Shown one piece after another: positions 61,088-64,000 of a stretch of 64,000 nt of DNA. Position 1 is the first letter of the stretch; every line of letters starts with the position of its first letter. The position numbers and the translations under genes are program-made. The notes below the pieces were generated by a model, which saw only the letters and a program-made list of their open reading frames with translations, had not been told where the DNA came from and did no database searches. This stretch comes from Owenweeksia sp. (GTDB lineage: Bacteria > Bacteroidota > Bacteroidia > Flavobacteriales > Schleiferiaceae): the NCBI GenBank assembly GCA_028285465.1, contig JANQPD010000025.1, positions 1 to 64,000 on the forward strand. Direction: 5' to 3'.

Positions 61088-61161
61088 GGGCCTATAGCTC
61101 AGTTGGTTAGAGTAGAAGACTCATAATCTTTTGGTCGCAGGTTCGAGCCCTGCTGGGCCCA
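61088..61161 (+). tRNA. tRNA with CAT anticodon (Met, or lysidine-modified Ile2)
   Basis: A complete cloverleaf of 74 bases: acceptor GGGCCTA/TGGGCCC, D arm GCTC...GAGT, anticodon arm with loop CTCATAA (anticodon CAT) and T arm GCAGG-TTCGAGC-CCTGC. The 3' CCA is not encoded. The TCATAATC...TTGGTCGC anticodon and variable region resembles E. coli tRNA-Ile2 (CAT), which TilS modifies, more than elongator tRNA-Met, but the two cannot be told apart firmly here. Confidence 0.93.
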
Positions 61162-61286
61162 CATCTTTTATTAAGCCCTTTATTTTTTTAAATAAAGGGT
61201 TTTTTTTGTTTTCTGAAGGTTTGCTTTTCCCAGTCGGGCGAGAAGTTTATCCCGACCGCGATGGAGGGGAGCCCTGCTGGGCCCAC
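61145..61286 (+). repeat. 18-bp direct repeat of the tRNA 3' end (candidate attachment site)
   Basis: GAGCCCTGCTGGGCCCAC, the 3' end of the tRNA (61145-61162), recurs exactly at 61269-61286. The block between holds a terminator and a GTCGGG...CCCGAC hairpin (61233-61256). Both copies are followed by intrinsic terminators, so the tRNA end plus terminator looks duplicated. Such repeats mark integrase attachment sites at tRNA genes. Confidence 0.7.
61175..61207 (+). terminator. Terminator of the tRNA
   Basis: CCCTTTATTT (61176-61185) pairs with AAATAAAGGG (61190-61199), loop TTTT, followed by a T-run. Confidence 0.9.
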
Positions 61287-61290
61287 CCTA

Positions 61291-61321
61291 AAGCCCGAAA
61301 TTTTTTGTTTCGGGCTTTTTT
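61291..61321 (+). terminator. Second terminator after the duplicated tRNA end
   Basis: AAGCCCGAAA (61291-61300) pairs with TTTCGGGCTT (61308-61317), loop of 7, followed by T-run. It mirrors the terminator after the first copy but differs in sequence. Confidence 0.85.
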
Positions 61322-61544
61322 GTTTGACATTCAGCCAATTTAGGATTCGACTTTATTCATTCTCTAAAACTATAACACAATGGTTACAAGCTGATTAAGG
61401 GTTCGATTCCAATCAGCCTATTTTTCCTTAATAACGCTTATAAAGGAGTGGTTTTTCCATTCATTTCAATTTTTTAATGTAAGTGCTCCGTATGGTTAGA
61501 CAAATTACCCCCTATTTTGCCACATCTCCTTAGTGGGCATAAAT

Positions 61545-61727
61545 CTAAAAGTAGGATTTGCTTTCAGTGCATCTAACACCTAATCTGGTTTGTCGTAACC
61601 ATCTTAGTAAGCTAACATACTCATGAGTATCACCAACATATTCCCGCCATATGGATACTTTGGTACGCTTACTATTCAAGTACGCCTCGCATAGTTGTCG
61701 CTTAAATGATTCACTGTACCCCTATAA
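61545..61727 (-). pseudogene. Remnant of an IS3-type transposase OrfA
   Basis: Reading the minus strand from 61718 to 61545 gives 57 codons beginning YSESFKRQLCEAYLNSKRTK and continuing with VSIWREYVGDTH and YVSLLRWLRQ. This fits the N-terminal helix-turn-helix of IS3-family OrfA transposases (YSEEFKxxVLxEYL...LRKYG...ILNWLR). A stop in the same frame at 61722-61724 and stop codons further upstream show it is broken. No intact OrfB or clear terminal repeats are visible, so it is a relic of a past insertion. Confidence 0.55.
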
Positions 61728-61738
61728 TTCATATTTAC

Positions 61739-62017
61739 TTATTTTTTACACGCCTTGCGTAAACCTATTTTAAGACCAGATAAGTTCTCACAGTTCCAGT
61801 TTTTATCATCTACCGCACAAACAACTACTACAAATTGTAAGTAAATCAGGGAACTAAAAAGAGAAATCTGTACAATCTCTTTATTACTTTCTAATTTTTT
61901 TAGCCCGTAAAATAATATTAAAGCAAACCAGTAGGTTAATGATTTTGAATGACTATAGCATGGAAAAGATAATATGCTGAAAAGGCAACGAATATATATC
62001 TGAGTTCGGGTAGTCAT
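61739..62017 (-). CDS. Doubtful hydrophobic reading frame
   Basis: 92 codons with one or two hydrophobic segments (LTYWFALILFYGLKKLE, FSSLIYLQFVVVVCAV). It starts on the minus strand where the next gene starts on the plus strand, with no space for two promoters. No family recognised. It may be chance in AT-rich DNA. Confidence 0.2.
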   Translation of the reverse strand: MTTRTQIYIRCLFSILSFPCYSHSKSLTYWFALILFYGLKKLESNKEIVQISLFSSLIYLQFVVVVCAVDDKNWNCENLSGLKIGLRKACKK

Positions 62018-62619
62018 ATGAGTAACATCTTATATGAGAAAACAAGGTTAGTAACATACAAATCATATCCTAAACTTACTGTATATAATCACTCTTTAAA
62101 TCTAACTTTAAGAACAGTGGATCTAAGCGTTCCCAAAAGTAATTCACACTTTGATGACCTGTTTTATGTTTTTATACTTCCAGATCAACAGATTGAAGAA
62201 AAAAAGCAGAGCTCGATCAATATAAAGCTCAAAGCTTTGATTTAAGAGAAGACAGGTTTGGCTTTAGATACTGTGTTTTGCCAAAAAAGACTACAAAAAT
62301 GCGAGTTAAATGTTACAGTATTAGGCTCAAAAGCCTGAAACGAATTACTTACAAAGCGCTTAATGCTATTGCTTTTGATGGTACAACCGCAATTATTCCA
62401 ATTAGTCAATATTACGGGGAAGATTACAGTGGAAAGGATAGGGCACATTGGATAAGTGCCTGGATATTACAAAGAAGAACCTTACCGCAAAGCAAAAAAA
62501 AAGAGGCATGGTTTGATTCTAAGACGAAACAAATGCTATCTGAAATAAGCATTAAAAGGCATATACCTGCGAAAATAGGAGCTAAAAAAATTGACCCTGA
62601 TGAAACGCTTACTAGGTAG
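62018..62619 (+). CDS. Phage/island-type protein, probably read by -1 frameshift
   Basis: Two overlapping frames look like one gene. The first (62018-62245) encodes 75 residues to a stop; the second is open from 62197 and runs to 62619. At 62200-62206 the sequence A AAA AAG, in the zero frame of the first part, allows a -1 slip that joins PDQQIEEKK to AELDQYKAQSFDLREDRFGF and gives a protein of about 200 residues. The second part (ending IDPDETLTR) has composition and content typical of phage and island genes (YYGEDYSGKDRAHWISAW). A 7-A run error or mutation is the alternative. Without the slip, a start at ATG 62299 would make a shorter protein. No known family recognised. Confidence 0.5.
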
Positions 62620-63799
62620 CCAACAAACCGCTATAAGTAAGATGTCTAAGCTAAAAGTAGGCGCGCTTTTTATGGAGGCTGGTACTGGTAAAACCAGAGC
62701 AGCAAAGCAATTGGTAGAGAGCTTAACCGGAGATACGGATATCTTTTGGTTTACCCCATTTCAAACTAAAAAAAACCTGAAAGCTGAACTTGATAAATGG
62801 GGAAGTTTAAATTGTCAAATTATAGGTACCGAAAGCATAAGCCAAAGCGATAGGCTATATATGCAGCTTAGCGAACAAATAAGTGCCAGTGCTAAACCCA
62901 TTTTGGTGGTAGATGAATCACTTAAGATCAAAAACTTTAGTGCCATAAGAACCAGACGGCTTATTGAACTTAGCACAATGGCAGAATATAAGCTAATACT
63001 GAATGGCACTCCGCTAAGCAGGAACCTGCTTGATCTTTGGAGTCAGTTAGAATTTTTATCTCCTAAAATTCTGAATATGGGAGAAACAGAATTTAAAAAT
63101 ACCTTTTGCGAGTATGTAGAAATAACGTACAACAGCAAAGGCCTTGGTCGAAGCTTTACTAAAGAGTTTATTAAGAAATACCATAACCTGGATTACTTAT
63201 ATAGCCTAATAGAGCCATACATCTTCGAAAGTACGCTAAGTCTCCGTGTAGGTCAACAATATATTGATTTAAGCTATAGTATTTCAGAAGAAGAACAAAA
63301 TGAACATGATCGACTGAAAGGAAAATATTTGGATGACAAAATGCTATTAGCACGTAACAACAATATATTCCTGGAGCTAACCCAAAAAATGCAGCACAAC
63401 TATAGCGCTAGTGAGGAGAAGTTCACCATTGTAGAAAAACTGCTCGAAAAGCATGATCCTTCAAAGGTGCTGATTTATGCCAAGTATATAGACACGCAGC
63501 AATTGCTTAAGGATACCTTTCCGTATGTGCGTATCATGAGCCTGGGGAAACATGCTTATGGATTGAATTTACAACAGTATAACGTGGTTATTTTTTTTGA
63601 TAAAACCTGGGATTATGCCCAGAGAGAACAGGTTGAACACCGCGTTTATAGAGGATTACAACATTTTGATTGCATTTACTATGATTTGACAGCCAATGTT
63701 GGACTTGATCAACTCATAAATGCTTCTATACTTAAAAAAGAGCGTTTGCTGACAGCTTTTAAATCCAAGACTATAAATGAGTTGAGAGTTATACTATGA
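62600..63799 (+). CDS. SNF2-like DEAD/DEAH-box helicase
   Basis: 399-residue ATPase of the SNF2-like superfamily 2, typical of phage and mobile elements. Walker A is MEAGTGKTR, Walker B is VVDESL, motif III NGTPLSRN, and the C-terminal motif VI AQREQVEHRVYR with its arginine finger. No nuclease or DNA-binding extra domain is present. The chosen start is ATG 62600, avoiding TTG at 62591; it overlaps the previous gene by 20 bases and the next start by 4 (ATGA), so the three belong to one operon. Confidence 0.85.
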   Translation: MKRLLGSQQTAISKMSKLKVGALFMEAGTGKTRAAKQLVESLTGDTDIFWFTPFQTKKNLKAELDKWGSLNCQIIGTESISQSDRLYMQLSEQISASAKPILVVDESLKIKNFSAIRTRRLIELSTMAEYKLILNGTPLSRNLLDLWSQLEFLSPKILNMGETEFKNTFCEYVEITYNSKGLGRSFTKEFIKKYHNLDYLYSLIEPYIFESTLSLRVGQQYIDLSYSISEEEQNEHDRLKGKYLDDKMLLARNNNIFLELTQKMQHNYSASEEKFTIVEKLLEKHDPSKVLIYAKYIDTQQLLKDTFPYVRIMSLGKHAYGLNLQQYNVVIFFDKTWDYAQREQVEHRVYRGLQHFDCIYYDLTANVGLDQLINASILKKERLLTAFKSKTINELRVIL

Positions 63800-64000
63800 A
63801 GAAGTATTTACAAGCTGATGTATATCAGGCGGCAATTGAGCGACTGGAATTTGCTTTTGACGAAGCGAAAAAAGTGTATTGCAGCTTTAGCGGGGGTAAA
63901 GACAGTGGGGTTATGCTCAATCTGGCGCTTGAAGTAGCCAGAAAGAAAAATAAATTGCCTCTCGATGTTTTAGTGGTAGATCTGGAAGCACAATACAAAA
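63796..64000 (+). CDS. PAPS-reductase-family protein (IbrA/DUF3440-like), start of gene
   Basis: First 68 residues of a protein cut by the window edge. It carries the ATP-pyrophosphatase P-loop SFSGGKDSGVMLNL and the following VDLEAQYK stretch, the pattern of IbrA/DUF3440 proteins of the PAPS-reductase superfamily, which are common on phages and genomic islands and are often paired with a ParB-like nuclease (IbrB). Its ATG overlaps the helicase stop by 4 bases. Its substrate is unknown; a DndC-like sulfur-transfer role is possible but not supported here. Confidence 0.75.
   Translation, partial: MKKYLQADVYQAAIERLEFAFDEAKKVYCSFSGGKDSGVMLNLALEVARKKNKLPLDVLVVDLEAQYK

Follow-up and report, generated by a model that had tools for sequence, protein, structure and literature searches.

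A putative frame-broken phage gene remnant beside a self-starting phrog_5809 gene at an A-run in a bacterial contig

The question raised by this locus is whether a slippery A-run directs ribosomes from one reading frame into another, or whether it marks the place where a gene has lost its frame. In the window, i.e. the whole 64,000-nt stretch of DNA analysed, a 75-aa ORF on the plus strand (ORF1, 62018-62245, ATG at 62018) contains seven As (62199-62205) followed by G62206, and its zero-frame codons at 62198-62206 read GAA AAA AAG. The sequence-only reading had proposed a -1 slip at this site, giving one protein of about 200 residues. Indeed, the heptamer A_AAA_AAG is present in the zero frame of ORF1 (62200-62206), inside the overlap of two frames, and the -1 frame is open to 62619 as claimed, with 140 codons between TAG 62194-62196 and the stop codon 62617-62619, its first ATG at 62299 and its first TTG at 62278. 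Our preferred explanation, to which we assign a probability of about 0.8, is that a broken remnant of an upstream phage gene lies next to an intact phrog_5809 gene, which would be read from ATG 62299 with no frameshifting. The features are listed in Table 1.

Table 1 Features of the locus and of the adjoining part of the contig.
Feature	Position	Strand	Basis and remarks
tRNA gene, CAT anticodon	61088..61162	+	ARAGORN; Rfam RF00005, 70.1 bits; adjoins the phage-derived segment
Exact 18-bp copy of the tRNA 3' end (61145-61162)	61269..61286	+	Repeat search; 124 bp downstream
Putative remnant of upstream phage gene, first half, ORF1 frame	61997..62205	+	Similarity to the L008 protein by tblastn and by frameshift-aware alignment
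A7-G run with A_AAA_AAG (62200-62206)	62199..62206	+	Reading frame of the remnant shifts here
Same putative ancestral gene continued in the -1 frame (AELDQYKAQSFDLREDRF)	62206..62259	+	Aligned to KELQKRALDAGKLIEDGF of L008
Small intact phage gene of 106 aa, in the unknown-function family phrog_5809	62299..62619	+	Own ATG; A at -3 and -6
SNF2-type DNA helicase gene	62600..63799	+	phrog_62, E 2.4e-51; Pfam SNF2-rel_dom, Helicase_C; overlaps the phrog_5809 gene end
Phage PAPS-reductase / DUF3440 gene	63796..64000, beyond window end (L013:6642-7826)	+	phrog_2302, E 3e-98; DUF3440
ParB-like gene, after the PAPS-reductase gene	L013:7823-8434		phrog_2159, E 1.1e-60
IS4-type transposase fragment (DUF4372), behind the ParB gene	L013:8693-9256 (contig 65847-66410)		187 aa against a 332-position model

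The heptamer and its surroundings

The heptamer is common in this DNA. The window has 66 copies of AAAAAAG, and in the 43 main ORFs, which total about 19,000 codons, A_AAA_AAG stands in frame six times. A DNA scan of IMG/VR with the flank of the site returned 15 exact 18-mer matches. Short complementary arms of the hairpins proposed downstream do exist, but the predicted RNA fold of 62207-62290 was no better than that of shuffled sequence (z = 0.15), and inspection by eye of the 30 bases 5' of the heptamer gave no clear Shine-Dalgarno motif. Neither the stimulatory RNA structure (in 62207-62290) nor the upstream Shine-Dalgarno-like element looked for in a programmed -1 frameshift was therefore found. 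The dnaX signal relies on an internal element resembling a Shine-Dalgarno sequence and on a hairpin located 6 nt downstream (PMC11162774), and Bacteroidia ribosomes do not recognise Shine-Dalgarno sequences (PMC9976891). This counts against recoding here. The window site shares the heptamer and its frame with dnaX and IS-type -1 signals, but differs from them in having no visible Shine-Dalgarno-like stimulator, no significant structure, no conserved overlap and a downstream gene that starts by itself.

The phrog_5809 gene and its relatives

Residues 1-96 of the protein read from ATG 62299 matched positions 1-97 of the 107-position phrog_5809 profile (E 9.3e-31), and the protein shows 45-53% identity to relatives starting at the same Met. 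The bases 5' of this ATG are A-rich. In Flavobacterium johnsoniae, which belongs to a phylum without Shine-Dalgarno sequences, initiation is promoted by A-3 (PMC6847099). The host is probably a member of the Bacteroidetes, judging by relatives and gene content. The A-3 and A-6 of ATG 62299 fit Bacteroidetes starts, which supports initiation of phrog_5809 at its own ATG. Further analysis covered 65 distinct phrog_5809 relatives, collected by alignment-based scans of IMG/VR and genomes with duplicates removed. An in-frame stop lies upstream of the gene in all 65, at a median distance of 6 codons and a maximum of 49, and in 63 of them a start codon stands where expected. In these relatives phrog_5809 stands by itself, starts on its own and directly follows an unrelated gene, and ATG 62299 occupies the same alignment position. 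Fusion to the preceding gene was found in 0 of the 65. The family was not found in a plasmid search and is rare within the order.

The closest described arrangement is that of Flavobacterium phage FCL-2, in which the phrog_5809 member is gp06, a separate CDS with a 4-nt overlap with gp05 and followed by gp07. The window gene has in common with gp06 and its relatives the length, the start, the above level of identity to relatives and a helicase gene directly downstream. Unlike in FCL-2, it is part of a bacterial contig in which neither a terminase nor a portal gene was seen in its vicinity, and the PAPS-reductase gene precedes ParB, the reverse of the FCL-2 order.

These data indicate that the gene at 62299 is most likely a separate phage gene of about 106 aa with its own start, for which no ribosome slipping is needed. 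The premise of a single protein of about 200 residues is accordingly unsupported, since the frame that stays open to 62619 is for the most part an independently started phrog_5809 gene, fused in no relative; the search for single-frame homologues of this size, proposed as a check, instead yielded separate phrog_5809 genes and a 265-aa relative of the upstream part. A programmed -1 frameshift producing such an ORF1-phrog_5809 fusion might be suspected from the correctly framed heptamer, the seamlessly open -1 frame and the protein similarity that goes on in this frame beyond the site. Judged on the sequence comparisons, we nevertheless hold it to be highly improbable: besides the lack of fusions, of structure above chance and of a clear Shine-Dalgarno motif, a single-frame relative of ORF1 requires no shift, and in the two relatives with a rightly framed heptamer upstream (L020 and L025) a stop intervenes before the gene. 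The slippery site with overlapping frames was conserved in 0 of the 65 relatives, none having the phrog_5809 gene open into the upstream gene.

The upstream remnant

The 265-aa relative is encoded in a single frame immediately upstream of phrog_5809 in an IMG/VR phage (L008). ORF1 alone had no family match and no relatives in phage records, and its similarity to the L008 protein was weak (27-28% identity, about 22 bits). When ORF1 was joined to the -1 frame, comparison with the C-terminus of the L008 protein gave E 1e-7 as a BLASTP pair, and phmmer gave E 4.5e-7 for the L008 protein among the proteins upstream of phrog_5809; profile E-values of the window pieces from the upstream-protein search were left out as circular. 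The joined protein retrieved nothing from IMG/VR, and a two-sequence profile search recovered the same phage and nothing else. The similarity is weak, since a search of 88 genomes of the family with the L008 C-terminus, among them the genome carrying the window, gave no match at E 0.001. Contigs L006 and L007 are identical to L008, and because all matching contigs are mutually 100% identical, the similarity of ORF1 effectively rests on one phage. Two other candidates were rejected. The sole ORF1 match in a search of 395 genomes (in L011) runs antisense to an ORF of 699 aa and was taken as chance; that its 19.7 bits with the same query nearly equal the L008 score weighs against our explanation, although so many genomes were searched to obtain it. 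FCL-2 gp05, which holds the same gene position, showed no significant similarity to the remnant (E 0.025).

Frameshift-aware alignment to the L008 protein spans 61997 to 62259 and is ungapped across the A-run, where the change of frame appears with a frameshift penalty of up to 12. Under heavier penalties the alignment keeps the first frame through the ORF1 stop, with gaps; that the tail past this stop is also alignable in the original frame speaks against our explanation. Anchored extension past the A-run scored 19 in the -1 frame, 7 in frame 0 and 0 in the +1 frame, and 19 was reached by 0.1% of dinucleotide shuffles in the same frame and 0.3% in any frame. These comparisons give fair, not overwhelming, support for homology of the remnant and the L008 protein across the A-run. 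The similarity sets in 21 bases before ATG 62018 (YLSSGSHM/YLSVTSAI), at residue 176 of 265, suggesting that this ATG lay within the ancestral coding sequence if the L008 gene has the ancestral form. For L008 residues 1-175 no counterpart was found in 61101-61996. ORF1 and the stretch that follows it in the -1 frame look like a 5'-truncated, frame-broken remnant with the first two thirds of the gene missing, and this first gene is presumably dead. The convincing protein sequence noticed before the first ATG (ELDQYKAQSFDLREDRFGF) is probably real, but according to the L008 alignment it is part of the upstream gene and not of phrog_5809.

ORF1 could also be a separate intact small gene ending at 62245, with the ELDQYKAQ... 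stretch open by chance. It begins with ATG and ends at a stop codon, the -1 tail is modestly similar, and open extensions of at least 34 codons before the phrog_5809 ATG are no rarity, being present in 4 of the 65 distinct relatives (about 6%). This is quite unlikely in our view, given a similarity that begins 5' of the ATG and crosses into the other frame at a level seldom reached by shuffles, and the failure of ORF1 to match any family or phage record. A remnant with a lost frame remains our preferred reading. The similarity of a single-frame relative crosses the A-run, and in this sense the change of frame is real. Of the two explanations originally offered, recoding or an indel in the A-run, this favours the indel, whether of biological or of technical origin. 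An error of sequencing or assembly, leaving an upstream fragment that is truly single-frame and possibly in frame with phrog_5809, would be consistent with a homopolymer site in a draft assembly of 99 contigs and with the ungapped similarity. It is unlikely, however, as a run of 7 bases would be short for the usual errors of short reads, and the upstream gene would still be 5'-truncated and would run stop-free into phrog_5809, unlike in the relatives.

The same point bears on a mutation. A change in the A-run alone would run the upstream gene in frame into phrog_5809, an arrangement seen in no relative, and in L008 the gene terminates with an ATGA overlap, in a different frame from the stop-free -1 frame of the window. 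Since the -1 frame reaches phrog_5809 without meeting a stop, a change in the A-run is insufficient by itself, and either a further change or the loss of a stop has to be assumed. That a newly arisen -1 slip instead fuses the captured remnant to phrog_5809, making some fusion protein with an N-terminal domain of unknown nature, is very improbable.

The phage-derived segment and its setting

The phage-like segment extends for about 3.6 kb, from about 61997 to about contig position 65588, and is followed by the IS4-type transposase fragment. The phrog_5809, helicase, PAPS-reductase and ParB genes are all open, indicating that decay is not segment-wide. The helicase and PAPS-reductase proteins also match ZorD/DpdE and DndC models weakly. 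The transposase fragment is apparently broken and is the only such match in the genome; just past it lies a PLP-dependent aminotransferase gene on the minus strand (L013:9262-10449), whose best NCBIfam matches are far below the cut-offs.

On the other side, the 18-bp copy of the tRNA 3' end may be an attachment-site duplicate or a decayed tRNA end. At about 61390-61420, a stretch (GGGTTCGATTCC...) resembles by eye a decayed tRNA T-arm. Both places are possible old attachment sites. A relative of the terminase of the type found upstream of phrog_5809 in L002 was not detected in the genome, in a search run without a positive control. Together with the missing L008 residues 1-175 and the transposase fragment, this counts in favour of our preferred explanation.

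The identities of the genes, the start of phrog_5809 and the lack of the 5' part relative to L008 are observed; from them we infer the following order of events, in which the A-run was changed by mutation and not by faulty sequencing. A phage segment would have been left or captured beside the tRNA gene, with the upstream gene cut; the remnant would later have lost its frame at the homopolymer run, most likely by an ordinary indel and less likely by assembly error; and phrog_5809 would be translated from its own ATG 62299. A well-formed heptamer and an open -1 frame mimicked recoding at this locus, where comparison with relatives points to a self-starting gene beside a broken one. The bacterial chromosome here carries, without their usual structural neighbours, the helicase, PAPS-reductase and ParB genes of a phage module.
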